From contig CAJMOO010000012.1 in the NCBI GenBank assembly GCA_905215045.1, forward strand, positions 1 to 30,029: 30,029 bases of DNA, read 5' to 3'. The notes below the pieces were generated by a model. That model was not told where the DNA came from. It ran no database searches and saw nothing but the letters and a program-made list of their open reading frames with translations. The first letter of the stretch is position 1, and every line of letters starts with the position of its first letter. A program made the position numbers and the translations under genes. Source of the stretch: an uncultured bacterium (GTDB taxonomy: Bacteria; Bacillota_A; Clostridia; Lachnospirales; Lachnospiraceae). Of this stretch, positions 11,437 through 25,330 are shown in pieces.

Positions 11437-12375
11437 TCAATCAAGCAGAGCAAGTGCTGTTTCTTTGGTAGTAAAAAATGAGTTGATCAGATGAAGCGAC
11501 AAAGCAGAATGAATAATATCTTTCTTGTAAGTTCCTTCAGCAATACCAATAGAAACACGAGCATGTTTAGAAGCTTTAAAAATATCAGCATGAATGATTC
11601 TCTCTGTAAGTTCTGTCTCTACAAGTTTTGAATCTGAGGTTAAAAACTGTAAAGAGATATCACCGATAGCACCAGCATCCTTTAGCTGGGCGACTTCATC
11701 CGCAGAAAGAATATCATGTCTTGTCAGAAAAGAGGTTTCAAAAGTTCCGATCCCTGTGATGATGATATCTGGATTCTCAGCAAGATTAAGGGTTGATTGA
11801 ACTTTTGGGTTCGAACTTAAAGTTTCGTATTCTTCCTTGGAAGAACAAAATGCTGGGAAATGAAGTAAATGGGATTTACCACCTGTCAGATTAGCCAGCT
11901 GGATGACGTTATAGTTTGGCAATGTATCAAATGAAGCGCCAAAACTTCCAGCAAGAGGGACGATCTGAATATCAGAAAACTTCAATGGATGGATATGGCG
12001 GATAAATCTTGAAACAGCATTTCCCCATGCTACACCGATGACATCGGTTGGTTTGATCTGTGAGATGAAATAATTCACAGCAGCCATGGAAAGATAATCT
12101 TTGGATGTATCGGAATTGTCGATAACACTTGCATATTCAAGCTGGTATTTATCACAGAGTTGCTGCTCTAACTGAGTATTTCCAAGGATTGGAGACTCGA
12201 TTTCAATCTTAACGATACCGAGTTCTTCAGCACGGGTAAGAAGTTTTGATACCCAGGGTCTTGAAATATTAAGTTTCTTGGCGATTTCCTGTTGGGAGAG
12301 TTTGTCTTTGTAATATAAAGTTGCGATCAAAGTAATGCGATCTAACATAGCATCATTGTTTTCTAGTTTTTTCAT
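11437..12375 (-). CDS. SorC-family transcriptional regulator (2)
   Basis: The 312-residue product has the HTH near its N-terminus (about 14-47, SQQEIAKKLNISRPWVSKLL) and a SorC sugar-binding domain that contains VIGVAWGNAVSRFI, VPLAGSFGASFDTLPNY, IIITGIGTFETSFLTRH and a terminal VSIGIAEGTYKKDII. It is a clear paralogue of the regulator at 18946-19881, with nearly the same HTH recognition helix (SRPWVSKLL), so both should bind the same operator. The ATG at 12375 is preferred over 12384, since the upstream AAAGGA would abut the latter. It is divergent from the first PTS operon, the usual place for a local regulator. Confidence 0.91.
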   Translation of the reverse strand: MKKLENNDAMLDRITLIATLYYKDKLSQQEIAKKLNISRPWVSKLLTRAEELGIVKIEIESPILGNTQLEQQLCDKYQLEYASVIDNSDTSKDYLSMAAVNYFISQIKPTDVIGVAWGNAVSRFIRHIHPLKFSDIQIVPLAGSFGASFDTLPNYNVIQLANLTGGKSHLLHFPAFCSSKEEYETLSSNPKVQSTLNLAENPDIIITGIGTFETSFLTRHDILSADEVAQLKDAGAIGDISLQFLTSDSKLVETELTERIIHADIFKASKHARVSIGIAEGTYKKDIIHSALSLHLINSFFTTKETALALLD

Positions 12376-12414
12376 AGGCAACATCCTTTATAAAAGTAAT
12401 TTTAATCGTAAAAA

Positions 12415-12427
12415 GCACAAATGTGAC
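12415..12427. promoter_or_regulatory. Operator site O2 in the SorC regulator 2 leader
   Basis: GCACAAATGTGAC, a near-perfect dyad, lies between the regulator's -10 (12447-12442) and its start codon. Binding here would block transcription of the regulator, i.e. autoregulation. Confidence 0.6.
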
Positions 12428-12441
12428 ATCTTTTTAACAAA

Positions 12442-12470
12442 ATTATATTGTAAAAAATACAGAAATTCAA
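12442..12470 (-). promoter_or_regulatory. Promoter of SorC regulator 2
   Basis: Minus strand TTGAAT (12470-12465), 17-bp spacer, TATAAT (12447-12442). The same boxes and spacing occur before the paralogue at 19941-19969. Confidence 0.7.
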
Positions 12471-12496
12471 GAAAAAATGGATAAGAAAAAGAAAAA

Positions 12497-12527
12497 AAGA
12501 CGAACAAATGTAAAAGAATGATATATA
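12497..12527 (+). promoter_or_regulatory. Promoter of the first PTS operon with embedded operator O3
   Basis: GAACAAATGTAAA (12502-12514) follows a weak -35-like AAGACG (12497-12502) and precedes a TATATA-type -10 near 12520-12527. The layout matches the stronger promoter at 19998-20026, where the same operator occupies the spacer. The poor -35 suggests dependence on an activator. Confidence 0.5.
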
Positions 12528-12610
12528 TGGAACAAAGGATACCAAAGTCCAATGTAGATTAAAGGGCCCGATTCGATGGATGAGGTATTTGGAGAAACAT
12601 TTATATAGAG
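12520..12610 (+). promoter_or_regulatory. Conserved leader element before PTS IIC copy 1
   Basis: Three blocks are shared with 16757-16853 before the second IIC gene: GATATAYATGGAACAAAG, GGGCCC (12564-12569) and ACATTTATATAGA (12597-12609). The first two are 44 bp apart in both copies. ATACC near 12540 can pair with GGTAT near 12584, placing the self-complementary GGGCCC in a loop. Function is inferred only; see findings. Confidence 0.4.
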
Positions 12611-12664
12611 TGAAAATGAAAAAATTATCATAGGTAAACATTAAAAAAGGAGGAAAACTTATTT

Positions 12665-13183
12665 ATGACAGTTATTTCAAACATTGCAAATGGCTTTATA
12701 GGATTGTTCAACGCAGGTGGAGAGCAGTTTATGAGCTGGGTAACAGGAATTATTCCTTTAGTTATCTGCCTGATGACTGCGGTTAACGCACTGATTGGAT
12801 TTATTGGGGTAGAAAGAGTAGAAAAGTTTTGTCAGAAGATCACAAAATATACACTTCTTCGTTATACATTGCTGCCAATCATGGCCGTTATCTTTTTAAC
12901 GAATCCAGCGATGTATACATTTGGAAGATTTTTAAAGAAAGAACATAAAGCAGCATTTTATGATGCGACAGTTTCATTTTGCCATCCAGTAACTGGATTA
13001 TTTCCACATGCAAATGCAGGAGAGTTATTCGTATACATGGGAATTGCAACAGGTATCCAGAAATTAGGATTATCTATTGGTGGTCTTGCAGTAAGATATT
13101 TCATCGTAGGTGTGATCGTAATTTTGATCCGTGGTATCTTATGTGAAAAAATTTATGCAGTATTAAGCAAGAAAGCAAATTAA
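12665..13183 (+). CDS. srlA: PTS glucitol/sorbitol-family IIC component (copy 1)
   Basis: This is the EIIC-type membrane half of the glucitol-class phosphotransferase permease. The 172-residue product is collinear with SrlA (GutA): an amphipathic start ANGFIGLFNAGGEQFMSWVTG, helices with IIPLVICLMTAVNALIGFIG, then NPAMYTFGRFLKKEHKAAFYD, CHPVTGLFPHANAGELFVYMGIA and a final helix VRYFIVGVIVILIRGIL. It is about 15 residues shorter than the enterobacterial protein at the C-terminus. AGGAGG lies upstream, and the IIBC gene starts 17 bp downstream. The substrate is a polyol or related compound, not necessarily sorbitol. Confidence 0.93.
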   Translation: MTVISNIANGFIGLFNAGGEQFMSWVTGIIPLVICLMTAVNALIGFIGVERVEKFCQKITKYTLLRYTLLPIMAVIFLTNPAMYTFGRFLKKEHKAAFYDATVSFCHPVTGLFPHANAGELFVYMGIATGIQKLGLSIGGLAVRYFIVGVIVILIRGILCEKIYAVLSKKAN

Positions 13184-13200
13184 GGAAAGGAGAATCCAAT

Positions 13201-14217
13201 ATGTATAAAACGATTACGATCAAAGCTGGAAGTGGTGGATGGGGAGGACCATTAACTATCGTACCTACAGAAAAATGCAATAAGATCTTAAGTGTTACAG
13301 GTGGAGGAGTTCATCCGGTCGCACAGAAAATTGCAGAAATGACAGGAGGAGAAGCAGTTGATGGATTTAAGGAAACTCTTCCAGATGATGAAGTTTTAGT
13401 AGCTGTTGTAGATTGTGGTGGTACAGCCCGCTGCGGAGTTTATCCCAAAAAAGGAATTTTTACGGTAAATATTGAACCAGTAGGAAAAGCTGGTCCATTA
13501 GCAAAATATATTACACCAGAGATTTATGTATCAGCAGTTACAGAAAGTGACATTTTTGAATCTGATTATGCTGGCCATATTACACAGAAAGCATCAGAAG
13601 AAAAAGAACAGCCACAAGCAAGTGCTGCTCCAGAGCCAAAATCAAAAGCACAGGCAAAAGAAGAAATTGCAAAAGCAAACGAAGGAAAAAATGAAAATAT
13701 CGTTGTCCGTATTGGTAAAGTTGTTGGACGTGTTGTAAATATCTGTTTTCAGGCAGGTCGTGATACGATCGAAATGGTTGTTGGAACAATCCTTCCATTT
13801 ATGGCATTTACAGCTACACTGCTTGGTATCATTTCGGCTAGTGGACTTGGAAATGTCATTGCAAAAACAATTTCACCTATTTGTTCTACATTGCCAGGAA
13901 TGGTAGCGATCGCATTTATTTGCGGTATTCCGATCCTTTCTCCAGTCCTTGGACCAGGAGCTGTTATTGCACAGGTAGTCGGAACATTGCTGGGATCACA
14001 GTTTGCACTTGGAAATATTCCTCCACAGTATGCACTTCCAGCTTTGTTTGCAATCGATGCACAGGCAGGATGTGACTTTATTCCGGTTGGATTATCCCTT
14101 GGAGAAGCAGATTCAGAAACCATTGAATATGGTGTTCCAGCCGTATTGTTTGAACGACTGATCACAGGACCATTAGCGGTACTGATCGCGTTCGCATTTA
14201 GTATTGGAATGTATTAA
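13201..14217 (+). CDS. srlE: PTS glucitol/sorbitol-family IIBC component (copy 1)
   Basis: This subunit receives phosphate from IIA on a cysteine and passes it to the incoming sugar. Residues 1-120 are the IIB domain, with GSGGWGGPL at 10-18 and VVDCGGTARCG at 69-79; the phosphorylated cysteine should be C72. A charged Ala/Lys/Gln linker (about 122-160, SKAQAKEEIAKANEG) leads to the membrane IIC2 domain. That domain carries FQAGRDTIEMVVGTILPFMAF, GPGAVIAQVVGTLLG and CDFIPVGLSLGEADSETIE. Length is 338, against about 319 in enterobacteria, the extra being the linker. AGGAG precedes the ATG. Copy 2 at 17433 is about 90 percent identical by eye. Confidence 0.94.
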   Translation: MYKTITIKAGSGGWGGPLTIVPTEKCNKILSVTGGGVHPVAQKIAEMTGGEAVDGFKETLPDDEVLVAVVDCGGTARCGVYPKKGIFTVNIEPVGKAGPLAKYITPEIYVSAVTESDIFESDYAGHITQKASEEKEQPQASAAPEPKSKAQAKEEIAKANEGKNENIVVRIGKVVGRVVNICFQAGRDTIEMVVGTILPFMAFTATLLGIISASGLGNVIAKTISPICSTLPGMVAIAFICGIPILSPVLGPGAVIAQVVGTLLGSQFALGNIPPQYALPALFAIDAQAGCDFIPVGLSLGEADSETIEYGVPAVLFERLITGPLAVLIAFAFSIGMY

Positions 14218-14248
14218 TAAATATAGATTTCACAGGAGGTAGAGAAAT

Positions 14249-14617
14249 ATGAAATATCAGTCTAAAATCGTTGGACTTGGACCAGATGCGTTAGCGTTTC
14301 TGGAAGATGAAGATATGAACTTTATCATCATTTTTAACGAAGATGCACCACCAGAACTTGCAGAATTATCGGTACTTCATACAAAAGCTGAATTGAAAGA
14401 AGATCCAGCTGTTGGAGATACATTAAAGATTGGAAATAAAGAATTCAAAGTCAGTGCTGTCGGATGGGAAGCACCTCATACATGGGCAGAACTTGGACAT
14501 TGCACATTAGATTTCAAGGGAGGATCAGAGGCAGAACGTCCGGGATGTATCTCTCTTGAAGGAAACCAGCTGACAGCAGAAGATTTAGCCGTTGGCGGTG
14601 TCATTGAATTATATTAA
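14249..14617 (+). CDS. srlB: PTS glucitol/sorbitol-family IIA component (copy 1)
   Basis: The cytosolic IIA subunit shuttles phosphate from HPr to IIB. The 122-residue product matches SrlB in length and in its C-terminal signature LGHCTLDFKGGSEAERPGC. The predicted phospho-histidine is H44 in SVLHTKAELK. AGGAGGT precedes the ATG. The gene lies 31 bp after IIBC and about 50 bp before the DRL-like oxidoreductase, so transport and first oxidation appear co-transcribed. Confidence 0.93.
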   Translation: MKYQSKIVGLGPDALAFLEDEDMNFIIIFNEDAPPELAELSVLHTKAELKEDPAVGDTLKIGNKEFKVSAVGWEAPHTWAELGHCTLDFKGGSEAERPGCISLEGNQLTAEDLAVGGVIELY

Positions 14618-14665
14618 TTTAGCACTTATTAATTTATTTATATATAAGATAAGGAGAATGTGATT

Positions 14666-15985
14666 ATGTTAAACATGGATCAAAAATTAATCAAAAGACA
14701 GGAAGAAGGAAAAATCATCAAAACTGGTATCGTAGGTGCCGGACAGATGGGACGAGGAATGGTAACACAGATGGTACTGATGAACGGTATCACACCAGCC
14801 ATCGTATCTGACATCAAAGTAGAAAATGCGGTTCACGCATTCAAATATGCCGGAGTATCAGATGAAGATATCGTAGTTGCAAAAACACTTGCAGATGCAA
14901 ACGCAGCAATGGAAGCAGGAAAATATGTAGCATGTGAAGACGCAAACTTCGTATCCCAGGCAAACTTAGTAGAGTGTGCGATCGATGCAACAGGAGTTCC
15001 AGATGTCGGAGCAAAAGTAGCAACAGACGCAATGAAGAATAAAAAACACGTCGTTATGTTAAATGTAGAAACAGACGTAGTTATCGGGCCATACTTAAAG
15101 AAATTAGCTCAGAAAGAAGGAGTCATCTACACAGGATCCGCAGGAGATGAACCTGGAGCAGTCATGGAATTATACAGTTTTGCCAAAGCCATGGGAATGA
15201 ACGTGGAAGTCATGGGTAAAGGAAAGAACAATAAGATCGACTACGAATGCAACCCAGATACAGTCTTAGAAGAAGCAACACGCCGTGTTATGAGTCCAAA
15301 GATGTTATGTGCATTTAAAGATGGAACAAAGACAATGGTAGAGATGACAGCGATGTCTAACTACACAGGGCTGATCCCAGATGTGATCGGAGGACACGGA
15401 CCAAAGACAGCACCGGGAACAGAAGGTGTCAAAGAATTAAATGATATCTTCAAATTAAAAGAAGACGGCGGAATCTTAAACAAACATGGAGTTGTAGAAT
15501 ATGTAAACGGAATCGCACCAGGAGTCTTCGTAACAGTATCCACACCAAACGAAGAGATCGCATACCAGATGGGATACCACAGCATGGGACCTGGACCATT
15601 ATGGACATTATACAGACCATTCCACCTGTGCAACTTAGAGACACCATTAACAGTAGCAAAAGCCGTGATCGACGGAGAAGTTACATGCGTGCCAATCGAC
15701 GGATTAGTATCAGAGTGTATCACAAGAGCGAAGATTGACCTGAAAGCAGGACAGACGATCGATGGTATCGGAGGATACACAACACACGGATCAATCGCCA
15801 CAGCAGAAGAATCCAATGCGAAAGGATATGTACCATTTGGATTAGTAACAAACAAAGCTGTTATGAAGAGAGATGTCAAGAAAGGACAGCTGCTTACATA
15901 TGATGATATCGAATTAGATAAGAGCACACTGATCTACCAGTTAAGAAAAGAACAGGATGCTATGTACGGAAGAAACGTATTATAA
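14666..15985 (+). CDS. COG4091 / DXR-like (DRL) family NAD(P)-dependent oxidoreductase with SAF domain (copy 1)
   Basis: The 439-residue product has a homoserine-dehydrogenase-like Rossmann domain (GIVGAGQMGRGM at 21-32), a central catalytic domain with GPYLKKLAQKEGVIY (141-155) and GKGKNNKIDYECNPDT (184-199), KTMVEMTAMSNYTGLIPD (222-239), and a C-terminal SAF domain (about 347-425). As I recall the Brucella DRL (DXR-II) protein, it has the same length and several of these blocks. DRL makes 2-C-methylerythritol 4-phosphate from deoxyxylulose phosphate by coupled isomerisation and reduction. Other family members have different or unknown activity, so this one most likely acts on the PTS product. 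The ATG at 14666 (AAGGAG nine bases before) is used rather than the GTG at 14660. It is a near-exact duplicate of 20100-21419. Confidence 0.85.
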   Translation: MLNMDQKLIKRQEEGKIIKTGIVGAGQMGRGMVTQMVLMNGITPAIVSDIKVENAVHAFKYAGVSDEDIVVAKTLADANAAMEAGKYVACEDANFVSQANLVECAIDATGVPDVGAKVATDAMKNKKHVVMLNVETDVVIGPYLKKLAQKEGVIYTGSAGDEPGAVMELYSFAKAMGMNVEVMGKGKNNKIDYECNPDTVLEEATRRVMSPKMLCAFKDGTKTMVEMTAMSNYTGLIPDVIGGHGPKTAPGTEGVKELNDIFKLKEDGGILNKHGVVEYVNGIAPGVFVTVSTPNEEIAYQMGYHSMGPGPLWTLYRPFHLCNLETPLTVAKAVIDGEVTCVPIDGLVSECITRAKIDLKAGQTIDGIGGYTTHGSIATAEESNAKGYVPFGLVTNKAVMKRDVKKGQLLTYDDIELDKSTLIYQLRKEQDAMYGRNVL

Positions 15986-16019
15986 AAATACGTCTAAAAA
16001 TTGACACTTTAACTGACTG

Positions 16020-16213: not shown

Positions 16214-16226
16214 GCACGAATGTAAA
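16214..16226. promoter_or_regulatory. Operator site O4 downstream of the gutM promoter
   Basis: GCACGAATGTAAA, matching the site family with one change in the core. It lies about 25 bp after the -10, in the same relative place as the site at 20051. Confidence 0.5.
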
Positions 16227-16277: not shown

Positions 16278-16751
16278 GTGAGTGGTATTTCAAAGATGTT
16301 ATTGATCGTATTCGTATTGTTTATCCTGCAGGCCTTGGGAGGCTGGTATCAGATTCAGAATTACAGGAAAGCAATGAGAAGAGTTCATCAGTATGGGAAC
16401 GTCGGATTTGGACAGAGAAAAGGAAGGCTTACAGCAGGATATATCATTATGATCGCATGCAATCATGATGGAATTATCACGAGATGTGAAATCATGCAGG
16501 GATTAAGCTTCTTAGCAAAATTCAAGCCGTTAAATGAATTCCTTGGAAAAGATATGAAAGGAAGAAGCATTTACGAATTCCTTGATGATATGAAAGATTT
16601 TGATAAGAAACAAAAAAAGAAATATAAAGGTTATATCAATGCATTTGAAGCACTTGACCAGAGACTTCAGGACACAAAGCTTGAAGCAGATCAGAAACAA
16701 GCAGATCAGAAACAAGCAGTCAGTCAGGAAGCACAGGATGCATTAGCATAA
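16278..16751 (+). CDS. gutM: GutM/SrlM-family membrane-anchored accessory protein
   Basis: GutM is known in enterobacteria as an activator of the glucitol operon, though its mode of action is unclear. The 157-residue product has one N-terminal membrane helix (about 5-22) followed by the family block QALGGWYQIQNYRKAMRR and VGFGQRKGRLTAGYIIMIA; after this EIMQGLSFLAKFKPL matches the enterobacterial MKGLTVFARP region. It is about 38 residues longer than E. coli GutM. The extra C-terminal part is Lys/Gln-rich and contains an exact 15-bp DNA repeat (16686-16715). The start is GTG at 16278, eight bases after GGAAGGAG. It leads the operon that contains PTS copy 2; copy 1 has no gutM. Confidence 0.88.
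   Translation: MSGISKMLLIVFVLFILQALGGWYQIQNYRKAMRRVHQYGNVGFGQRKGRLTAGYIIMIACNHDGIITRCEIMQGLSFLAKFKPLNEFLGKDMKGRSIYEFLDDMKDFDKKQKKKYKGYINAFEALDQRLQDTKLEADQKQADQKQAVSQEAQDALA
16686..16715 (+). repeat. Tandem 15-bp repeat within gutM
   Basis: GCAGATCAGAAACAA occurs twice in a row (16686-16700 and 16701-16715) and encodes the repeated ADQKQ units. Unit-sized slippage would keep the frame. Confidence 0.85.
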
Positions 16752-16898: not shown

Positions 16899-17411
16899 AT
16901 GGAAGTTGTTTCTAACATTGCAAATGGTTTCATCGGTCTGTTCAATGCAGGTGGAGAAACATTTATGGGATGGGTAACAGGAATCATTCCACTGGTTATC
17001 TGCTTAATGACAGCGGTTAATGCGGTGATCGGATTCATCGGTGTTGAACGAGTGGAAGGTTTCTGCCAGAAGATTACAAAGTATACGATCCTTCGTTATA
17101 CATTACTTCCAGTTATGGCAGACATTTTCTTAACAAACCCAGCACAGTATACATTTGGACGTTTCTTAAAGAAAGAACATAAAGCAGCGTTTTATGATGC
17201 CAGCGTTTCTTTCTGTCATCCAATTACAGGTTTGTTCCCTCATGCGAATGCAGGTGAGTTATTCGTATACATGGGAATTGCATCAGGTCTTCAGAAAGCA
17301 GGATATTCCATTGGTGGACTTGCAGTAAGATATTTCATCGTCGGTGTTATTGTAATTCTGATCCGTGGAATCTTATGTGAACGTATCTATGCAGCATTAA
17401 GCAAACGATAA
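16899..17411 (+). CDS. srlA: PTS glucitol/sorbitol-family IIC component (copy 2)
   Basis: The 170-residue product aligns end to end with copy 1 at 12665, with scattered changes such as VMADIFLTNPAQYTF for IMAVIFLTNPAMYTF and SGLQKAGYSIGG for TGIQKLGLSIGG. All membrane segments and the GLFPHANAGELFVYMG loop are kept, so both copies look functional. AAGGAGG lies eight bases before the ATG. It sits downstream of gutM and just before the IIBC gene. Confidence 0.93.
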   Translation: MEVVSNIANGFIGLFNAGGETFMGWVTGIIPLVICLMTAVNAVIGFIGVERVEGFCQKITKYTILRYTLLPVMADIFLTNPAQYTFGRFLKKEHKAAFYDASVSFCHPITGLFPHANAGELFVYMGIASGLQKAGYSIGGLAVRYFIVGVIVILIRGILCERIYAALSKR

Positions 17412-17432: not shown

Positions 17433-18446
17433 ATGTATAAAACAATTACGATCAAAGCCGGAAGCGGTGGATGGGGAGGACCATTAACAATCTCTCCAAC
17501 AGAGAAATGCAATAAGATCTTAAGTGTTACAGGTGGAGGAATCCATCCGGTTGCTCAAAGAATCGCAGAAATGACAGGAGGAGAAGCCGTTGACGGATTT
17601 AAAGAGACTCTTCCTGATGATGAAGTCTTAGTAGCAGTCGTTGACTGTGGTGGAACAGCCCGCTGCGGTGTATATCCAAAGAAAGGAATCTACACAGTTA
17701 ACATCGAGCCTGTTGGTAAAGCAGGACCTCTTGCAAAATATATCACACCAGAGATTTATGTATCAGCAGTTACAGAAAATGATATCTTTGAATCTGACTA
17801 TGCTGGACATATCAAAGGAAACCCAGCAGCACAGGCAGCCGAAACAGCAGCTGCAGCACCACAGCCAAAATCAAAAGCACAGGCAAAAGAAGAAATTGCA
17901 AAAGCAAGTGAAGGTAAGAAAGAAAATATCGTTGTCCGCATCGGTAAAGTTGTTGGACGTGTGGTAAATATCTGTTTCCAGGCAGGTCGTGATACGATTG
18001 AGATGGTCGTTGGAACAATCCTTCCATTCATGGCATTTACAGCAACACTGCTTGGTATCATTTCGGCTAGTGGACTTGGAAATGTCATTGCGAAAACAAT
18101 TTCCCCAATCTGTTCTACGGTACCTGGAATGGTAGCGATCGCATTTGTCTGCGGTATCCCTATCCTTTCTCCAGTCCTTGGACCTGGAGCCGTTATCGCA
18201 CAGGTAGTCGGAACATTGCTTGGATCCCAGTTTGCACTTGGAAACATTCCTGCCCAGTATGCACTTCCAGCCTTATTTGCAATCGATGCTCAGGTAGGAT
18301 GTGACTTTATTCCAGTAGGATTATCACTTGGAGAAGCTGATTCAGAAACAATCGAATATGGTGTTCCAGCCGTATTATTTGAACGTCTGGTTACAGGACC
18401 ATTAGCCGTATTGATCGCATTTGCATTTAGTATGGGAATGTATTAA
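17433..18446 (+). CDS. srlE: PTS glucitol/sorbitol-family IIBC component (copy 2)
   Basis: The 337-residue product has the same IIB domain (VVDCGGTARCG, C72), Ala-rich linker and IIC2 domain as copy 1. The linker is the most changed part (NPAAQAAETAAAAPQPKSK here). At DNA level synonymous differences are common, but stretches such as CTTGGTATCATTTCGGCTAG (inside a longer identical run near 18052-18095) match copy 1 exactly, which suggests patchy gene conversion. AGGAGG precedes the ATG. Confidence 0.94.
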   Translation: MYKTITIKAGSGGWGGPLTISPTEKCNKILSVTGGGIHPVAQRIAEMTGGEAVDGFKETLPDDEVLVAVVDCGGTARCGVYPKKGIYTVNIEPVGKAGPLAKYITPEIYVSAVTENDIFESDYAGHIKGNPAAQAAETAAAAPQPKSKAQAKEEIAKASEGKKENIVVRIGKVVGRVVNICFQAGRDTIEMVVGTILPFMAFTATLLGIISASGLGNVIAKTISPICSTVPGMVAIAFVCGIPILSPVLGPGAVIAQVVGTLLGSQFALGNIPAQYALPALFAIDAQVGCDFIPVGLSLGEADSETIEYGVPAVLFERLVTGPLAVLIAFAFSMGMY

Positions 18447-18489: not shown

Positions 18490-18858
18490 ATGAAATATCA
18501 GTCTAAAATAGTTGGGTTAGGTCCAGATGCGTTAGCATTTCTGGATGATGAAGATATGAATTTTATTATTATTTTTAATGAGGATGCACCTCCGGAACTT
18601 GCAGAGCTTTCAGTACTTCATACCAAAGCGGAGTTAAAAGAAGATCCAGCAGTAGGAGATACATTCAGAATCGGTAAAAAAGAATATAAGATCAGTGCAG
18701 TTGGTTGGGAAGCACCTCATACTTTGTCCCAGCTAGGTCATTGTACTCTGGATTTCAAAGGTGGAGATGAGGCAGAACGTCCAGGATGCATATCACTGGA
18801 AGGAGAGAAGCTGACTCCAGAAGATCTGGAAATTGGCGGATTGATTGAGATTTATTAA
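18490..18858 (+). CDS. srlB: PTS glucitol/sorbitol-family IIA component (copy 2)
   Basis: The 122-residue product is a close paralogue of 14249-14617, with predicted phospho-histidine H44 in SVLHTKAEL and the LGHCTLDFKGGDEAERPGC signature. It closes the gutM-IIC-IIBC-IIA operon. Unlike copy 1 it is not followed by the oxidoreductase but by a terminator and a reverse-strand regulator. The ribosome site is a plain AAAGGA. Confidence 0.93.
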   Translation: MKYQSKIVGLGPDALAFLDDEDMNFIIIFNEDAPPELAELSVLHTKAELKEDPAVGDTFRIGKKEYKISAVGWEAPHTLSQLGHCTLDFKGGDEAERPGCISLEGEKLTPEDLEIGGLIEIY

Positions 18859-18945: not shown

Positions 18946-19881
18946 TTATAAAAGAGATAAAGCGGTTTCTTTATCTGTAAAAAATGCAGTAACAAGATGA
19001 CGAGATAATACAGCATGTATGATTTCTGTTTTCTCAAGACCTTCAGCGATAGCGATCACACAGCGGGCGTGATCCGCAATTTTAAAGACATCTGCTTTGA
19101 TAAGATTTTTGGTAAGTTCTGTATTGATCGTATTTCCGTCCTTGGATAAAAACTGTAATGCGAAATCTCCGACAGCATCGTATTGTTTTAATTCTTTGAT
19201 GGATTCATCGGAGAGAATATGATGTCGCGTCAGGAAGGAAGAATGAAAACTTCCGATTCCGTTGATCACAAGATCTGCATTTTCTGCCTGAGAAAGAACA
19301 GCCTGGGTGTTTTCGTTCTGGCTTAAAGCTTTGTATTCTTCTTTGGAAGAACAAAAAGCTGGAGCATGAAGAATGCCTGCATTTCCCTGAATTCTTTCGG
19401 CAAGTTTTAATGCACTGTAGTTTGGCAGTGTTTCAAATGTTGTTCCAAAACTTCCAGCGAGTGGTACAACATTTGTATCAGGAAGCTGCATAGGCATCAG
19501 TTCATTGATAAAACGTGAAACTGCATTTCCCCATCCAACCGCAATGGTGTCATTGGGTTTTATGACAGAAATAAAATAATTGGCGGCGGCTTGAGCGACA
19601 TAGTCTTTGTATGTATCATCGCGATCGATGACAACAACCTTTTGTAAATTATATTTTTGCTGTAAGGTTTCTTCCAGATCGGAATCTCCAGAGAGTGGAG
19701 AGTCAATTGTGATCTTTACAATGCCAAGTTCCAAAGCCTTTGCTAAAAGTTTTGAAACCCAGGGACGCGAAACATTTAAACGCTTCGCAATTTCTTGTTG
19801 TGAAAAATGATTTTTATAATAAAGATTTGCTGCCAGCAGAATCTTATTATACATTAAATCATCCGTTTCTTTCTTTGCCAT
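18946..19881 (-). CDS. SorC-family transcriptional regulator (3)
   Basis: The 311-residue product carries an HTH (about 14-48, SQQEIAKRLNVSRPWVSKLL) and a SorC sugar-binding domain with TIAVGWGNAVSRFI, VPLAGSFGTTFETLPNY, LVINGIGSFHSSFLTRHH and CVIAIAEGLEKTEI. It is the paralogue of the regulator at 11437. The ATG at 19881 is chosen because AAAGGAG lies seven bases before it. The longer reading from 19917 would start inside the operator. It is divergent from DRL-like copy 2 and shares a control region holding three operator copies, so autorepression with control of the catabolic operon is the likely arrangement. Confidence 0.91.
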   Translation of the reverse strand: MAKKETDDLMYNKILLAANLYYKNHFSQQEIAKRLNVSRPWVSKLLAKALELGIVKITIDSPLSGDSDLEETLQQKYNLQKVVVIDRDDTYKDYVAQAAANYFISVIKPNDTIAVGWGNAVSRFINELMPMQLPDTNVVPLAGSFGTTFETLPNYSALKLAERIQGNAGILHAPAFCSSKEEYKALSQNENTQAVLSQAENADLVINGIGSFHSSFLTRHHILSDESIKELKQYDAVGDFALQFLSKDGNTINTELTKNLIKADVFKIADHARCVIAIAEGLEKTEIIHAVLSRHLVTAFFTDKETALSLL

Positions 19882-19913
19882 GAAGCGACTCCTTTCGATG
19901 AAAACAACAATAG

Positions 19914-19926
19914 GCACATATGTAAC
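19914..19926. promoter_or_regulatory. Operator site O5 in the SorC regulator 3 leader
   Basis: GCACATATGTAAC, with the perfect dyad ACATATGT at 19916-19923, between the regulator's -10 and its start. Confidence 0.65.
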
Positions 19927-19940
19927 TATGATTTAATGAG

Positions 19941-19969
19941 ATTATATAGTAAAAGAGTGACTTATTCAA
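19941..19969 (-). promoter_or_regulatory. Promoter of SorC regulator 3
   Basis: Minus strand TTGAAT (19969-19964), 17-bp spacer, TATAAT (19946-19941), identical boxes to the regulator 2 promoter. Confidence 0.72.
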
Positions 19970-19997
19970 GCAAAATAAAGAAAAATTAGAAAAAGTA

Positions 19998-20026
19998 TTG
20001 ACGAACATATGTAAACTGTATATAAT
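19998..20026 (+). promoter_or_regulatory. Promoter of the DRL2-aldolase-yjbQ-TIM operon with operator O6 in its spacer
   Basis: TTGACG (19998-20003), 17-bp spacer, TATAAT (20021-20026), the strongest promoter in the region. GAACATATGTAAAC (20003-20016) fills the spacer, so a bound regulator would exclude RNA polymerase. Confidence 0.78.
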
Positions 20027-20050
20027 ACAAGTATCAAAAGTAATTGATAA

Positions 20051-20063
20051 GCACATATGTAAC
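20051..20063. promoter_or_regulatory. Operator site O7 downstream of the DRL2 promoter
   Basis: GCACATATGTAAC, identical to O5. Its dyad is 48 bp from that of O6 and 137 bp from O5, so looping between sites is possible for a tetrameric SorC protein. Confidence 0.62.
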
Positions 20064-20099
20064 TTCAAACGATTTTCAATCAGATAGGAGAATGAGATT

Positions 20100-21419
20100 A
20101 TGTTAAACATGGACCAGAAACTGATCAAGAGACAGGAAGAAGGAAAAATCATCAAAACTGGTATTGTAGGTGCCGGACAGATGGGACGAGGAATGGTAAC
20201 ACAGATGGTACTGATGAACGGTATCACACCAGCCATCGTATCTGACATCAAAGTAGAAAATGCGGTTCACGCATTCAAATATGCCGGAGTATCAGATGAA
20301 GATATCGTAGTTGCAAAAACACTTGCAGATGCAAACGCAGCAATGGAAGCAGGAAAATATGTAGCATGTGAAGACGCAAACTTCGTATCCCAGGCAAACT
20401 TAGTAGAGTGTGCGATCGATGCAACAGGAGTTCCAGATGTCGGAGCAAAAGTAGCAACAGACGCAATGAAGAATAAAAAACACGTCGTTATGTTAAATGT
20501 AGAAACAGACGTAGTTATCGGGCCATACTTAAAGAAATTAGCTCAGAAAGAAGGAGTCATCTACACAGGATCCGCAGGAGATGAACCTGGAGCAGTCATG
20601 GAATTATACAGTTTTGCCAAAGCCATGGGAATGAACGTGGAAGTCATGGGTAAAGGAAAGAACAATAAGATCGACTACGAATGCAACCCAGATACAGTCT
20701 TAGAAGAAGCAACACGCCGTGTTATGAGTCCAAAGATGTTATGTGCATTTAAAGATGGAACAAAGACAATGGTAGAGATGACAGCGATGTCTAACTACAC
20801 AGGGCTGATCCCAGATGTGATCGGAGGACACGGACCAAAGACAGCACCGGGAACAGAAGGTGTCAAAGAATTAAATGATATCTTCAAATTAAAAGAAGAC
20901 GGCGGAATCTTAAACAAACATGGAGTTGTAGAATATGTAAACGGAATCGCACCAGGAGTCTTCGTAACAGTATCCACACCAAACGAAGAGATCGCATACC
21001 AGATGGGATACCACAGCATGGGACCTGGACCATTATGGACATTATACAGACCATTCCACCTGTGCAACTTAGAGACACCATTAACAGTAGCAAAAGCCGT
21101 GATCGACGGAGAAGTTACATGCGTGCCAATCGACGGATTAGTATCAGAGTGTATCACAAGAGCGAAGATTGACCTGAAAGCAGGACAGACGATCGATGGT
21201 ATCGGAGGATACACAACACACGGATCAATCGCCACAGCAGAAGAATCCAATGCGAAAGGATATGTACCATTTGGATTAGTAACAAACAAAGCTGTTATGA
21301 AGAGAGATGTCAAGAAAGGACAGCTGCTTACATATGATGATATCGAATTAGATAAGAGCACACTGATCTACCAGTTAAGAAAAGAACAGGATGCTATGTA
21401 CGGAAGAAACGTATTATAA
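20100..21419 (+). CDS. COG4091 / DXR-like (DRL) family NAD(P)-dependent oxidoreductase with SAF domain (copy 2)
   Basis: The protein is identical over all 439 residues to copy 1 at 14666. At DNA level the six differences I find are all synonymous and lie within the first 22 codons (codons 5, 6, 8, 10 and 22). The remaining 1254 bp to the stop codon match exactly, and the flanks then differ at once. Domains are as in copy 1: Rossmann domain, DRL-type catalytic domain and C-terminal SAF domain. This copy begins the catabolic operon under a strong promoter, whereas copy 1 ends a PTS operon. AGGAG lies nine bases before the ATG. The gene is followed by a 15-bp hairpin and the aldolase gene. Confidence 0.85.
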   Translation: MLNMDQKLIKRQEEGKIIKTGIVGAGQMGRGMVTQMVLMNGITPAIVSDIKVENAVHAFKYAGVSDEDIVVAKTLADANAAMEAGKYVACEDANFVSQANLVECAIDATGVPDVGAKVATDAMKNKKHVVMLNVETDVVIGPYLKKLAQKEGVIYTGSAGDEPGAVMELYSFAKAMGMNVEVMGKGKNNKIDYECNPDTVLEEATRRVMSPKMLCAFKDGTKTMVEMTAMSNYTGLIPDVIGGHGPKTAPGTEGVKELNDIFKLKEDGGILNKHGVVEYVNGIAPGVFVTVSTPNEEIAYQMGYHSMGPGPLWTLYRPFHLCNLETPLTVAKAVIDGEVTCVPIDGLVSECITRAKIDLKAGQTIDGIGGYTTHGSIATAEESNAKGYVPFGLVTNKAVMKRDVKKGQLLTYDDIELDKSTLIYQLRKEQDAMYGRNVL

Positions 21420-21434
21420 GAGATAAAAACTTAA

Positions 21435-21468
21435 ACTTTCCTGCCGCATCTTTATGCGGCAGGAAAGT
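21435..21468 (+). promoter_or_regulatory. Perfect intra-operon hairpin between DRL2 and the aldolase
   Basis: ACTTTCCTGCCGCAT (21435-21449), loop CTTT, ATGCGGCAGGAAAGT (21454-21468). It has 15 perfect pairs but no U tract after it. This suits an RNA stabiliser or processing element that sets the DRL-to-aldolase ratio, or partial termination. Confidence 0.6.
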
Positions 21469-21504
21469 AATGAAAATAGTGAATGTAAATTAGGAGGAAG
21501 ACGG

Positions 21505-22374
21505 ATGTTAGTAACTTTAAAAGAATTACTCGACCAGGCCAAGATAGAACACAAAGCGGTAGGTGCATTTAATGGAACGACATTAGAAGCGATCCGTGGT
21601 ATTATTCAGGCAGCAGAAGAATTGAATTGTCCAGTAATTCTGCAGCATGCACAGAGTCATGATGATATCATTGATCTGGAAGAAATCGGACCAATCATGA
21701 AATATTATGCAGAACGTGCAAAAGTTCCTGTAGCACTTCATTTAGATCATGGAAGTTCCTTTGAACGATGCGTACAGGCCCTGCGTTTAGGGTTTACATC
21801 AGTTATGTATGACGCATCAGCAAAAAGTTTTGAAGAAAATGCCGAAGAGACAAAAGAGATTGTGAAAATCGCACATGCAGTAGGAGCAAGTGTAGAGGCA
21901 GAACTTGGACATATCTTTACATCTGAAGTTGTTCATGGAGAGGGTGGCTCCGCAGACAGCAAAGATGATTATGATGATCTTGATGATATTTATACAGATC
22001 CAGAAGTTGCAAAGAAATTTGTAGAGTTAACAGGGGTTGACTGTTTAGCTGTTGCGTTTGGTACAACACACGGAGTATATTTAACAGAACCAAAACTAGA
22101 TCTTCCTCGTGTAGCAAGAATCAGAGAAGCTGCTAACGTACCATTAGTTATGCATGGTGGATCCGGAGTATCCGATGAAGATTACGCTGTTGCGATCGAG
22201 AACGGAATCTGTAAAGTAAATTACTATACATATATGAATGTTGCCGGAGGAAAGGCCTCCAAAGAATTCTGGAAAGATGATGAAACAAATTTCTATGATT
22301 CTATGGCAATTAAAGCAACAGAAGCGATCAAAGAAGATGTAAAACGTGCGATCAAAGTATTCCAGAAATTATAG
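21505..22374 (+). CDS. Class II ketose-(bis)phosphate aldolase
   Basis: Class II aldolases use Zn to cleave ketose phosphates to a dihydroxyacetone(-phosphate)-type fragment and an aldehyde. The 289-residue TIM-barrel product has HLDH at 79-82 (D81 catalytic, H82 metal), EAELG (131-135), H189 in GTTHG and H217 in MHGGSG. The usual strand after GICKVN reads NYYTY (239-243), where family members have NIDTD or NVATE. AFN is followed by GTT rather than VNN. An acidic insert (about 150-161) lies after the flexible loop. These changes near the substrate pocket suggest a non-standard substrate. The ATG at 21505 has AGGAGG seven bases before it. It is second in the DRL2 operon, with yjbQ 14 bp downstream. 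Confidence 0.88.
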   Translation: MLVTLKELLDQAKIEHKAVGAFNGTTLEAIRGIIQAAEELNCPVILQHAQSHDDIIDLEEIGPIMKYYAERAKVPVALHLDHGSSFERCVQALRLGFTSVMYDASAKSFEENAEETKEIVKIAHAVGASVEAELGHIFTSEVVHGEGGSADSKDDYDDLDDIYTDPEVAKKFVELTGVDCLAVAFGTTHGVYLTEPKLDLPRVARIREAANVPLVMHGGSGVSDEDYAVAIENGICKVNYYTYMNVAGGKASKEFWKDDETNFYDSMAIKATEAIKEDVKRAIKVFQKL

Positions 22375-22388
22375 AAAAGAGGATAAAA

Positions 22389-22910
22389 ATGGCAGTATAT
22401 AAAGAAACAATCGAGGTAAAATCTCACGGGAAAACCCCAACATATATTGATATCACAAAGGACGTAAGAAGAGTCATTGAAGAAAGCGGAATCAAGAACG
22501 GTATCTGTGCCGTGATTTCTCCTCACACAACATGTTCCGTATTCTTCGAAGAATTCTGTCATGACTATAATGAAGATGGAGATGAATTCTTACAGGAAGA
22601 TTTAAATAATGTTCTTGCAAAGATCATTCCGGACCACGTATCCAAAGATCAGTATGTATATCCAGGAGAAGAACACTACAAAGCGGTAGAAAGCTGGCCA
22701 AATGCTGAAGATTATCTTCCAGGAGGAGATAGAACAGCATTATTTAATGGAGATGCACATTTAAAATCAACATTACTAGGTTCCAGTGAAACCTTTGAAG
22801 TAGATAACGGAAAACTTGGGGTAGGTACAACAGGATATGTATATTTTGCAGATTTTGACCGTACACGTCCACGAACAAGAAAATGTAAGATCGTAGTTCT
22901 TGGAGAATAA
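22389..22910 (+). CDS. YjbQ/UPF0047-family protein
   Basis: YjbQ proteins are small trimeric enzymes found in all domains; a weak thiamine-phosphate synthase side activity is reported for some, but the true role is not established. The 173-residue product has the family blocks GICAVISPHTTCSVFFEE (PHTT at 45-48), NEDGD (61-65), DAHLKSTLLGSS (122-133) and a C-terminal FDRTRPRTRK. It is about 30 residues longer than typical members, with the extra sequence between the second and third blocks (about 80-118). It is locked between the aldolase and the isomerase genes, 14 and 13 bp from each, which suggests a function in the same sugar-phosphate pathway. Confidence 0.85.
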   Translation: MAVYKETIEVKSHGKTPTYIDITKDVRRVIEESGIKNGICAVISPHTTCSVFFEEFCHDYNEDGDEFLQEDLNNVLAKIIPDHVSKDQYVYPGEEHYKAVESWPNAEDYLPGGDRTALFNGDAHLKSTLLGSSETFEVDNGKLGVGTTGYVYFADFDRTRPRTRKCKIVVLGE

Positions 22911-22923
22911 GGAGGAAAGCATC

Positions 22924-23610
22924 ATGGCAAAAGCCCAGTCACCATTTTTAATTGTCAATCCTAAGTCATATTTATACGGAAAAGAAAGTCTTGAATTAGC
23001 AAAAGCAGCTGATCAGGTTGCCAAAGATACAGGACTTCAGATATATTTCACATGTCCATATGCGGATATCCGTATGATCAAAGAAAATACAACTGATATC
23101 ATCGTATGTGCCCAGTCCATGGACCCATTAGTTCCAGGAAGAGGAATGGGACACGTATTACCAGAATCTTTAAAAGAAGCTGGAGCTGAAGCATTATTTT
23201 TAAATCATGCAGAGAATCCTAAAACAGTCAGTGATCTGTACGCAACGATCAAACGAGCAAAAGAACTTGACATGATCACAGTTGTATGTGCAGACTCAAC
23301 CGTAGAAGCCAAAGCAGTTGCCTGCATGGACCCAGACATCGTACTGGCAGAGCCAACAGACTTGATCGGAACAGGCCAGGTGGCAGATGATTCTTACACA
23401 ATTGAAACAGTCAAAGCGTTAAATGCGATCAATCCAAATGTATTAGTAATGATCGCATCCGGCGTAAGCACAGCTGAAGACTGCTACAATGTAGTAAAAT
23501 TAGGAGCAGACGGAACAGGTGCAACCTCCGGAATCTTAAACGCACCATCCCCTGCACAGAGAGTCAGAGAAATGGCAGAAGCAATCGTTAAGGCAAAAAA
23601 TGAAAAATAA
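22924..23610 (+). CDS. Archaeal-type triosephosphate isomerase family protein
   Basis: The 228-residue product keeps the triosephosphate isomerase catalytic set N12 and K14 (VNPKSY), H95 (LNHAE) and E143 (LAEPTDLIGTG). It is about 25 residues shorter than bacterial TpiA and matches the archaeal form in AEPxxLIGTG and the phosphate loop IASGVSTAED. It should interconvert glyceraldehyde 3-phosphate and dihydroxyacetone phosphate, or a related ketose or aldose phosphate pair; TIM-like EryH in erythritol catabolism shows that the family can take larger substrates. AAGGAGG lies eight bases before the ATG, so the upstream in-frame start at 22900 is rejected. It is the last gene of the operon. Confidence 0.87.
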   Translation: MAKAQSPFLIVNPKSYLYGKESLELAKAADQVAKDTGLQIYFTCPYADIRMIKENTTDIIVCAQSMDPLVPGRGMGHVLPESLKEAGAEALFLNHAENPKTVSDLYATIKRAKELDMITVVCADSTVEAKAVACMDPDIVLAEPTDLIGTGQVADDSYTIETVKALNAINPNVLVMIASGVSTAEDCYNVVKLGADGTGATSGILNAPSPAQRVREMAEAIVKAKNEK

Positions 23611-23659
23611 AAGTTAACAAATAGTTTGTTCACTTGTTTTCTTAATCCATATGAAAAAT

Positions 23660-23691
23660 GAGAAGGGATCTTGGATTCCTTCTTGTTTTTT
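23660..23691 (+). terminator. Terminator of the DRL2-aldolase-yjbQ-TIM operon
   Basis: GAGAAGGGAT (23660-23669) pairs with ATTCCTTCTT (23675-23684) around CTTGG, with a run of six T after it. Confidence 0.75.
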
Positions 23692-23724
23692 GTATAATTC
23701 TGATTTGAAAGGTAGTCGTTGACT

Positions 23725-23858
23725 GTTGTATGAAATAGAAAGAAGATCAGAACAAATATTTATAATATATCGGTGGCAACACGCACTTAAAATATGCTGA
23801 TCGTTGCCACCGATATATTATAAATATTTGTTCTGATCTTCTTTCTATTTCATACAAC
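23725..23858. repeat. Perfect 56-bp inverted repeat with 22-bp spacer
   Basis: The left arm 23725-23780 (starting GTTGTATGAAATAG) and right arm 23803-23858 are exact reverse complements, checked base by base, with spacer 23781-23802. The arms are AT-rich in the middle with a GC-richer base near the loop (CGGTGGCAAC). No T run follows, so it is not a normal terminator. A miniature mobile element or a cruciform-forming palindrome are possibilities. Confidence 0.9.
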
Positions 23859-24166
23859 GGAAGACTATTCAAACCACTACGGAGTGTGCATGTTAAACAG
23901 TATTGGATGATAATTTTTGTATCCGTTAACGGAAGATCAAAGGAACTTACAATCACCGATTTGACGAGAAGTTTGACATATATTTAAATCTTAATTATAT
24001 CCAATACCATCCAACATACACACCAACTCAAATTTTCCAATCTTGTAGTTTCCTACACTATAACCTTCAGGTATATGAGCAAAATTTCACCGCTGTGCTT
24101 TCGGTTGCTTATTTATTTTTTCCATATACGGAAAGACTTCAGTTGGCCAACACTACAATTAAAATT
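23859..24166. other. Gene-free AT-rich stretch before gldA
   Basis: No open frame with a ribosome binding site is visible on either strand. It contains the palindrome CCGTTAACGG (23923-23932) and three related short words, GGAAGACT near 23859, GGAAGATC near 23931 and GGAAAGACT near 24130. It may be the eroded remains of an element that carried the inverted repeat, but I do not recognise any transposase sequence. Confidence 0.4.
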
Positions 24167-24197
24167 TTGAGCAATTCCACTAAAATAATGTTATAAT
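24167..24197 (+). promoter_or_regulatory. Promoter for the glycerol-dehydrogenase-family gene
   Basis: TATAAT (24192-24197) with a TGn extended -10, and TTGAGC (24167-24172) at a long 19-bp spacing. Confidence 0.5.
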
Positions 24198-24241
24198 AAT
24201 AACAAACACCAAATCAAATTAACCAAGAAAGGAGCAAAATC

Positions 24242-25330
24242 ATGGCAGCAATCATCGGAAGTCCAACACGCTACATTCAAGGAAAAGGGGAAATGAAAAA
24301 CCTATGTTCCTACGCAGACAAGTTCGGAAAGAATCTATTCATTTTAACAAGTGCATCTGGAAGGAAGCGAGTAGAACCAGCGATCAACGAAGGGAACAAA
24401 GACAGTAATCTGACATACGATGTATTTAATGGAGAATGTTGTATGACAGAGATCAACCGTATTATAAAGATCGTAGAAGAAACAGGAAGTGATGTGATCA
24501 TCGGAATCGGTGGAGGAAAGATTCATGACACATCAAAAGCTGTTGCATACTATACAAAGAAACCAGTCATTATTGTACCAACCATTGCATCCACAGACGC
24601 ACCATGCAGTGCATTATCTGTGATCTATACAGATGAAGGTGTATTTGAGAAATATTTGTTCTTGCCATCAAGCCCGGATATGGTTATGGTAGATACAGAT
24701 ATCGTTTCAAAAGCACCAGTAAGATTGTTGATCTCAGGTATGGGAGATGCCCTGGCAACTTATTTTGAGGCAAGAGCATGTAAAAGATCCGATGCAAGTA
24801 ATTGTGTTGGCGGAAGATGTACATTGGCGGCAATGAATCTTGCACAGTTATGTTTTGATACATTAATGGAGAACGGAGTACAGGCGATGACAGCGGCAAG
24901 AGAAGGAATCTGTACAAAAGCCGTAGAAAATGTAATTGAAGCAAATACTTACTTATCAGGAATCGGATTTGAAAGTGGAGGATTAGCTGGGGCTCATGCA
25001 ATTCATAATGGATTTACAGCGATTCCAGAGACGCATAAGATGTATCACGGAGAGAAGGTTGCATTCGGAACACTGGTTCAGCTGGTATTAGAAGATGCTG
25101 GAGAAGATGAGATTATGGAAGTGATTGATTTCTGCAGTGAAGTCGGACTTCCTGTGACATTAAAAGCATTGGGAATCGAAGAAATAAAACCAGAACAGAT
25201 TATGGAAGTTGCGAAATTAGCGTGCGCACCGGATGATACGATGGGGAATATGCCATTTGAGGTGACGCCAGAAGATCTGTATGCTGCGATTATGGGTGCG
25301 GATGCACTTGGAAGATATTATACGGAATAA
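24242..25330 (+). CDS. gldA: Glycerol-dehydrogenase-family (GldA) NAD-dependent alcohol dehydrogenase
   Basis: GldA is a Zn-dependent group III alcohol dehydrogenase that interconverts glycerol and dihydroxyacetone and accepts hydroxyacetone and glycolaldehyde. The 362-residue product has the NAD loop GIGGGKIHDTSKAVA (88-102), the TIASTDAPCSALSVIY segment and metal ligands D169 (GMGDALATYFEA), H252 (GAHAIHNG) and H269 (YHGEKVAFG). GGAG lies upstream of the ATG. It has its own promoter and stands 631 bp from the aldolase-TIM operon. Its placement suggests, without proof, that it reduces a carbonyl fragment released by the aldolase and so recycles NADH. Members with other diol substrates cannot be excluded. 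Confidence 0.9.
   Translation: MAAIIGSPTRYIQGKGEMKNLCSYADKFGKNLFILTSASGRKRVEPAINEGNKDSNLTYDVFNGECCMTEINRIIKIVEETGSDVIIGIGGGKIHDTSKAVAYYTKKPVIIVPTIASTDAPCSALSVIYTDEGVFEKYLFLPSSPDMVMVDTDIVSKAPVRLLISGMGDALATYFEARACKRSDASNCVGGRCTLAAMNLAQLCFDTLMENGVQAMTAAREGICTKAVENVIEANTYLSGIGFESGGLAGAHAIHNGFTAIPETHKMYHGEKVAFGTLVQLVLEDAGEDEIMEVIDFCSEVGLPVTLKALGIEEIKPEQIMEVAKLACAPDDTMGNMPFEVTPEDLYAAIMGADALGRYYTE

Follow-up and report, generated by a model that had tools for sequence, protein, structure and literature searches.

The window considered here is a stretch of 30,029 nucleotides from an uncultured bacterium of the Lachnospiraceae (contig CAJMOO010000012.1 of assembly GCA_905215045.1), in which a cluster flanked by housekeeping families (ftsZ, typA, dapA/dapB, glmS) combines two sets of glucitol-class phosphotransferase system (PTS) genes with two copies of DRL, an oxidoreductase resembling the reductoisomerase DXR-II of Brucella. 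Pfam and NCBIfam profile scans, covering 27 window proteins, gave the order SorC (+), SorC (-), IIC-IIBC-IIA-DRL, GutM, IIC-IIBC-IIA, SorC (-), DRL-aldolase-YjbQ-TIM (triosephosphate isomerase family) and then GldA. The features are as follows:

10273-11286, + strand: SorC/DeoR-type sugar-binding regulator 0 (PF04198, 1.4e-60)
11437-12384, - strand: SorC/DeoR-type sugar-binding regulator 1 (PF04198, 3.2e-48)
12415-12513, + strand: two operator-like sites preceding PTS set 1, GCACAAATGTGA at 12415 and GAACAAATGTAA at 12502
12665-13183, + strand: glucitol-class PTS IIC, set 1 (PF03608, 5e-74; NF049923 above cut-off)
13201-14217, + strand: glucitol-class PTS IIBC, set 1 (PF03612/PF07663; NF049924 above cut-off)
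14249-14617, + strand: glucitol-class PTS IIA, set 1 (PF03829, 6.4e-30)
14660-15985, + strand: DRL1, DXR-II-type oxidoreductase (PF21135, 3.1e-59)
16214-16225, + strand: operator-like site preceding GutM and PTS set 2
16278-16751, + strand: GutM activator-like protein (PF06923, 2.9e-26)
16899-17411, + strand: glucitol-class PTS IIC, set 2 (PF03608, 4.7e-73)
17433-18446, + strand: glucitol-class PTS IIBC, set 2 (91% identity with set 1)
18490-18858, + strand: glucitol-class PTS IIA, set 2 (PF03829, 2.8e-31)
18946-19917, - strand: SorC/DeoR-type sugar-binding regulator 2 (PF04198, 9.1e-52)
19914-20062, + strand: three operator-like sites (19914, 20003, 20051) in the gap between SorC2 and DRL2; 19914 overlaps the SorC2 start
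20100-21419, + strand: DRL2, DXR-II-type oxidoreductase (PF21135, 3.1e-59; PDB 3upl, 1.1e-99)
21454-22374, + strand: class II aldolase (PF01116, 7.7e-91)
22389-22910, + strand: long YjbQ/UPF0047 protein of 173 aa (PF01894, 4.3e-28; TIGR00149 above cut-off)
22900-23610, + strand: archaeal-type triosephosphate-isomerase family protein (NF003302 above cut-off; PDB 1hg3, 1.8e-47)
24242-25330: GldA (family scan), about 630 bases past the TIM gene

A sequence-only reading of this DNA had proposed a kinase-free polyol regulon built around DRL and the glucitol-class PTS. The family scans place both PTS sets, gutM, the aldolase, YjbQ, the archaeal-type TIM and GldA where that reading had them, and among the 27 proteins scanned they call neither a kinase family nor an SrlD-type short-chain dehydrogenase. 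The PTS-DRL linkage is also kept in relatives, which were taken as the best 80 of 179 DRL matches in a genome collection (some of the loci being short), the closest by DRL being Anaerostipes hominis (94%) and Lachnospiraceae. A glucitol-class PTS gene occurs in 71 of these 80 DRL loci. In the 40 loci with at least 5 kb on either side of DRL, IIC and IIBC were found 38 times each, IIA and SorC 37 times each, GutM 31, YjbQ 25, aldolase 24 and TIM 24 times; the last three families are all present in 35 of the 80 loci. GldA, which had been counted as a pathway member, is linked in just one of the 40 and was dropped as a component of the system. By their record titles, the organisms include Lachnospiraceae, Mogibacterium, Selenomonas and other Negativicutes, Erysipelotrichia-type genera, Brachyspira and Conservatibacter. 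Two loci (L132 and L136; L and G numbers are our handles for loci and genomes) have DRL with an alcohol dehydrogenase and no PTS, L132 adding FGGY kinase and SIS-domain genes. In three lineages ispD adjoins the DRL-PTS cluster (L006, 5937-6638; L049, 11441-12199; L076, 16532-17257), as it does in L007. Its surroundings are ordinary (in L006 it follows RNase Z and TsaD genes, in the L049 genome ispF is nearby), and the adjacency could be partly chance, L006 and L007 being alike.

The regulatory sites claimed in the sequence-only reading as shared operators are recognisable in the window. The pattern GMACRWATGTRA occurs at 10168, 12415, 12502, 16214, 19914, 20003 and 20051, that is, at seven sites, all on the + strand, against 0.08 expected (ten against 3.26 when one mismatch is permitted); because it was written post hoc from these same regions, the expectation of 0.08 flatters it, and the counts show the likeness of the sites rather than a clean significance. 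The site at 10168 lies upstream of the first SorC gene, within the start of that gene's minus-strand neighbour, and regulator 0, encoded by this SorC gene, is the window type closest to most regulators at the DRL loci of relatives. A promoter-like site with an 11/12 match lies at 19998-20026; the window scans for promoters (49 sites against 46.9 by chance) and terminators did not yield more than chance.

The identity of DRL is the point on which the interpretation turns. In a PDB search with the window protein (E<=0.001) the only matches were 3upl and 3upy, both Brucella DXR-II, the former at 1.1e-99 over residues 5-436 of 439, and the catalytic domain PF21135 in each copy falls within this full-length match. 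Ten positions that serve as substrate-binding, divergence or dimer residues of DXR-II, according to PMC3847144, were compared, and nine agree with Brucella (G121, E174, F178, K191, K193, T229, H250, R320, V351), while position 322 is Phe where Brucella has Tyr. K191 is kept in 113 and T229 in 109 of 115 aligned DRL rows, and ten of the 11 plasmid DRLs examined agree at the seven positions compared in them. The earlier description of two SAF-domain DRL oxidoreductases holds as to the two DRLs; the SAF domain received no Pfam call in them at E<=1e-3 (it is called in the relative L124, at 3.7e-5).

One difference from the Brucella enzyme is at the end of strand beta-2, where the window has Ser-Asp-Ile-Lys and Brucella Ser-Ala-Arg-Arg. 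An Arg-rich beta-2 end is the usual NADPH pattern, whereas an acidic residue there favours NAD. Asp occupies this place in 103 of the 113 DRLs scored (two of the 115 rows are blank), and Asp or Glu in all 11 plasmid DRLs examined out of 94 records. Non-acidic ends belong to G043, G058 and G214, genomes without DXR-I and with no PTS seen at the fetched DRL locus, to L131 and L139 (with an IIA-like hit only) and to a few others including far paralogues; L144 had no alignable DRL. In the genomes of the window's own clade that lack DXR-I, the single DRL has Asp, so that methylerythritol phosphate (MEP) would have to be made there with NADH. Judged by these residues, the window DRL points to a DXR-II-type enzyme of NAD type that would be run oxidatively.

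That DRL is an enzyme of the Brucella kind, as first suggested, is argued not only by its residues but also by the replacement of DXR-I in relatives. Among the first 17 DRL-bearing genomes examined, five had no DXR-I (judged by two Pfam domains), and all five possess IspG, IspF and one DRL copy. A phylum sample comprised 299 genomes (DRL in 32, DXR-I in 279, IspG in 293); there DXR-I (PF02670) is missing from 13 of the 31 genomes with DRL and IspG and from 3 of the 262 with IspG and no DRL (Fisher 6.7e-12, uncorrected for kinship and with genome completeness not stated). The 31 exclude G260, which has no IspG; every PF21135 match was scored as DRL, even in the few cases where it is distant (among them G229, G154, G120, G282, G097). 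The DRL-free G041 and G157, with marginal DXR-I matches, were counted as having DXR-I; G157 has no IspG, and recounting G041 changes the DRL-free figure to 4/262. On a quick DRL tree, with long branches and many open forks outside the window's clade, presence and absence of DXR-I switch a minimum of 7 times, and within that clade DXR-I is absent at four places (L076 with L078, L051, L020, L006). The fetched DRL locus carries PTS genes in ten of the 13 DXR-I-less genomes, two of them by an IIA-like hit only. The loss is also visible in gene order. The arrangement in A. hominis and Selenomonas ruminantium is cdsA-dxr-rseP-ispG; in the isolates Selenomonas sp. F0473 and Anaerostipes sp. 992a cdsA is followed directly by rseP-ispG, dxr being cleanly gone, and in G054 the dxr slot is occupied by an AI-2E-family transporter gene. 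A phylum sample centred on Faecalicoccus had DRL in 2 of 344 genomes, one being that Faecalicoccus genome, and so provides no second test of the association. In these relatives DRL can apparently stand in for DXR-I where the rest of the MEP pathway is present, and from this replacement we infer its DXR-II activity.

The same genomes are peculiar with respect to DXS. The dxs profile is under its cut-off in all 13 genomes with DRL and IspG and without DXR-I, as compared with 10 of the 277 having both DXR-I and IspG (Fisher 9.1e-17). Nine of the 13 fall within one DRL clade, so few events are involved. One of them, G014, has two strong DXS pieces in one frame and probably possesses a real, divergent DXS; and of the first five DXR-I-less genomes, G003, G008 and G017 do have DXS. 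The scan left 29 genomes under the cut-off, 28 of them nameable, the last having DXR-I and IspG by elimination. Genomes with IspG and DRL, and with neither DXR-I nor DXS over the cut-off, are G054, G132, G166, G193, G242, G266, G313, G217, G096, G043, G058, G214 and G005; canonical genes do not account for the initial two MEP-pathway steps in them. Candidate explanations for the supply of 1-deoxyxylulose 5-phosphate (DXP) and MEP without canonical DXS are import of methylerythritol, formation of DXP by an E1 component or another thiamine enzyme, and a missed DXS.

In other clades and phyla DRL has a further partner, the gene order being PTS (or ABC importer plus kinase)-DRL-E1alpha-E1beta-E2. 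Of the 31 DRL loci of the phylum sample (the distant paralogue L151 being excluded), 14 have E1alpha and E1beta of the 2-oxoacid/acetoin type, all 14 together with a PTS; E2 is present in 13 of these and E3 in five. The components were named by NCBIfam in L124 and by similarity to L124 elsewhere. NCBIfam also names Enzyme I in L124 and two other E1-bearing loci, and L124 has, between E3 and Enzyme I, a small open reading frame of HPr size with no Pfam name at 1e-10. In L150 (genome G260) PTS-DRL-E1/E2 is joined by aldolase, YjbQ and TIM, and as this genome has neither IspG nor DXR-I, the DRL gene set can occur apart from isoprenoid synthesis. On plasmids, a query itself taken from a DRL operon matched 429 E1alpha records, of which 60 were listed; the 33 that ranked highest all lie less than 10 kb from a DRL, 32 of them at 75-209 bases; by name, 32 are alphaproteobacteria and one is Priestia. 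Some plasmid loci (Terrarubrum, Nitratireductor, Pseudoroseomonas) carry a glucitol PTS, an Enzyme I-type ptsP and GutM, others (Rhizobium, Agrobacterium, Sinorhizobium) an ABC importer with a sugar kinase, and the Priestia locus an FGGY kinase. PTS and importer plus kinase thus look interchangeable beside DRL, which makes a phosphorylated polyol the probable DRL substrate. DXP being an acyloin, it could be split to acetyl-CoA and glyceraldehyde 3-phosphate by an acetoin-type complex; in a PDB search E1alpha matched pyruvate dehydrogenase (PDH) and branched-chain enzymes alike. Mutants of E. coli PDH-E1 raised DXP in vivo about 20-fold, as stated in the accessible part of PMC3424233.

From the observed gene content, residues and linkage we infer the substrate, the direction of the DRL reaction and the subsequent cleavage. 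2-C-methyl-D-erythritol would be imported and phosphorylated to MEP by the PTS, or by an ABC importer plus kinase, and MEP would be oxidatively rearranged to DXP by the catabolic, NAD-type DRL. In relatives with the DRL-E1/E2 module (class 2), E1/E2(/E3) would split DXP to glyceraldehyde 3-phosphate and acetyl-CoA. In the window the carbonyl may instead be shifted next to the phosphate by YjbQ and the TIM-family protein, whereupon the aldolase would free dihydroxyacetone phosphate (DHAP) and a two-carbon aldehyde. That a DXR-II-type enzyme is used in a catabolic polyol operon we hold with greater confidence than the choice of methylerythritol for the window. The window itself may hold a set of operons that, under SorC control, serve to take up and degrade a 2-C-branched polyol. 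2-C-methyl-D-erythritol is the likeliest candidate, an assignment to which we give not quite an even chance. A bacterial 2-C-methyl-D-erythritol pathway in general (uptake with phosphorylation, oxidation to DXP by NAD-type DXR-II, cleavage by a thiamine-type enzyme or an aldolase) is a tentative proposal, which we would sooner doubt than assert. The earlier reading had kept both branched and plain polyols as candidates; what was found on DXP and MEP speaks for a 2-C-branched tetritol, with methylerythritol in first place, and sets plain tetritols and pentitols back.

The aldolase branch of the window was considered at the level of single residues. In an alignment, the aldolase retains the metal ligands, the catalytic Asp and the GGS motif; in its C-terminal motif GPA[R]DAIK the Arg is replaced by Thr (Arg is found in three of 38 rows, two of which are PDB rows). 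We take the His, Asp and GG(S/T) residues to have their usual roles and the Arg to be the distal-phosphate site, in which case the replacement would remove the second phosphate site of the enzyme. With no kinase in the window, a monophosphorylated ketose is the likely substrate. The TIM-family protein, aligned with PDB 1hg3, retains Lys, His and Glu, presumably the catalytic residues. Conversion of DXP to a 5-deoxyketose 1-phosphate and its cleavage to DHAP and acetaldehyde is chemically possible, if speculative.

The two DRL proteins of the window are identical in all 439 residues and their genes differ by 6 bases in 1320, the repeat being only gene-sized (14644-15985 and 20079-21419), unlike the PTS copies, whose DNA is 80-87% alike. 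A similar contrast is seen in two metagenome-assembled Anaerostipes genomes with several PTS sets (DRL 95.8-98.4%, PTS 60-73%) and, more weakly, in Propionispora (79.6% against 56-61%), while A. hominis (94.2% against 77-97%) and one Mogibacterium (92.8% against 84-93%) display little or no homogenisation. The near-identity of the DRL genes probably stems from copying from one to another, and where this holds, divergent importers would supply one and the same DRL.

Several observations weigh against methylerythritol as the substrate and DXP as the intermediate. The closest relative in the genome collection, A. hominis, has both DXR-I and DXS, so DRL need not make MEP there. Divergent PTS copies beside near-identical DRLs suggest more than one polyol. 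An E1 complex was seen neither in the window nor in any of the 80 close loci (some short), and a PDH-type complex beside DRL may simply handle pyruvate; wild-type E. coli PDH-E1 gave no rise of DXP, as far as the accessible part of PMC3424233 states. Two plasmid settings are not readily reconciled with a phosphorylated polyol. A Phyllobacterium DRL lies beside an ABC importer with no kinase or E1 annotated nearby. On the Aminobacter plasmid locus L169 (4626-13714), the neighbours of DRL-E1alpha-E1beta-E2 are a gene of the desuccinylase/aspartoacylase family and an ABC importer of ectoine type, a setting that hints at a different substrate.

The alternative that fares best, though we consider it unlikely, is a pentitol of the linear kind, be it ribitol, xylitol or arabitol. 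DRL would then be a plain polyol-phosphate dehydrogenase yielding ribulose or xylulose 5-phosphate for the pentose phosphate pathway, with aldolase and TIM as a transaldolase-free version of it. Transketolase, whole or split, accompanies DRL and PTS in 11 of the 80 loci, which would suit pentulose 5-phosphate as the product no less than DXP, or even more; PFK occurs in L036, FSA and transketolase in a Ligilactobacillus plasmid operon, and loci with SorC, GutM, PTS and DRL alone (L064) would suffice if the product were a central metabolite. A pentitol, however, leaves both the loss of DXR-I together with DRL and the DRL-E1 linkage unexplained, and an aldolase without the bisphosphate-aldolase Arg argues against a sedoheptulose-bisphosphate role.

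Another 2-C-branched polyol, such as apiitol, would join the DXR-II signature with the linked split transketolases and with the gut and rumen sources given in the record titles. DRL would either rearrange the polyol phosphate to xylulose 5-phosphate or oxidise it to apulose 4-phosphate, on which the split transketolase would act. An apulose-4-phosphate pathway is part of known metabolism. We find an apiitol-like substrate distinctly improbable: the literature searched does not establish that a DXR-type enzyme acts on the hydroxylated analogue. NCBIfam names the split proteins only transketolase, and the search returned no paper on apulose-4-phosphate and transketolase, so naming them apulose-4-phosphate transketolases was rejected for now.

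An operon for plain sorbitol use, with DRL in the place of SrlD oxidising sorbitol 6-phosphate to fructose 6-phosphate, agrees with the class of the PTS, whose IIC and IIBC exceed the NCBIfam equivalog cut-offs, and with the Listeria counterpart, a gut operon of order SorC-DRL-GutM-IIC-IIB-IIA (which we take to be about lmo0542-lmo0547). PMC11176438 describes this operon, which it gives with a SAF-domain protein, as one for sorbitol, a point against the methylerythritol assignment. The DXR-I replacement and E1 linkage, together with the missing SrlD-type call, make sorbitol still harder to believe. Service of DRL in isoprenoid supply, with the PTS incidental or salvaging methylerythritol into isoprenoid synthesis, is very improbable, since the DXR-I loss, the under-threshold DXS and the ispD neighbours of L006, L007, L049 and L076, which would suit it, are outweighed by the IspG-less genome of L150 with its PTS-DRL-E1-aldolase-YjbQ-TIM set, by the DXS of G003, G008 and G017, by the NAD-type residue of PTS-linked copies and by a IIC/IIBC linkage too constant for an incidental PTS.

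Set against known systems, the window DRL shares with Brucella abortus DXR-II (the family of PMC3847144) the near-full-length match, the catalytic domain, the residues and the role as a replacement of DXR-I in relatives, but differs in its PTS operon, in its Asp at the beta-2 end and Phe 322, and in a nearest relative that keeps DXR-I intact. The E. coli srl/gut sorbitol operon has the same PTS class (IIC, IIBC, IIA) and GutM together with SrlD; the window has no SrlD-type call, has SorC-family regulators, and adds DRL, aldolase, YjbQ and TIM. In Listeria an annotated tagatose-bisphosphate aldolase lies about 2.5 kb further on, and no YjbQ or TIM is annotated in the 17 kb covered. The E1alpha, E1beta, E2 and E3 families of acetoin/pyruvate dehydrogenase complexes are found in the class-2 relative L124, and E1 complex genes directly follow DRL in class-2 and plasmid operons, not in the window. 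In the erythritol pathway a polyol phosphate is oxidised and the carbonyl moved by TIM-like and RpiB-like isomerases; the scans of the window proteins called neither a kinase nor an RpiB family. A Lachnospiraceae riboflavin-degradation cluster was also compared and rejected, as the accessible part of PMC12934955 describes a class I aldolase and other genes.

Two features outside the coding sequences deserve mention. The gap between the TIM and GldA genes holds a near-perfect hairpin of 134 bases (23725-23858; -100.6 kcal/mol, z -22.5), possibly a small mobile element, and a glmS ribozyme-riboswitch that clears the Rfam cut-off by a wide margin lies upstream of glmS (27517-27701, - strand).

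In the literature searched, DXR-II figures only as a substitute for the DXR of the MEP pathway, with a scattered distribution and no defining pattern, according to the accessible part of PMC13001223; 'PTS' and 'sorbitol' are not found in the main text of PMC3847144, and, by its listings, a search of the open-access literature gave neither a methylerythritol breakdown pathway nor a catabolic operon for it. The steady partnership of DRL with a polyol PTS, and with E1/E2 across phyla, is a possible reason for this scatter. If our interpretation is true, a catabolic use would be added to the MEP/DXP node, DXR-II would have been recruited from a catabolic operon or would share its home with one, and plant isoprenoid by-products would be linked to gut and root bacteria. 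It also bears on the genomes that keep IspG without DXR-I and canonical DXS, some of which would then feed their isoprenoid pathway from the DRL operon.

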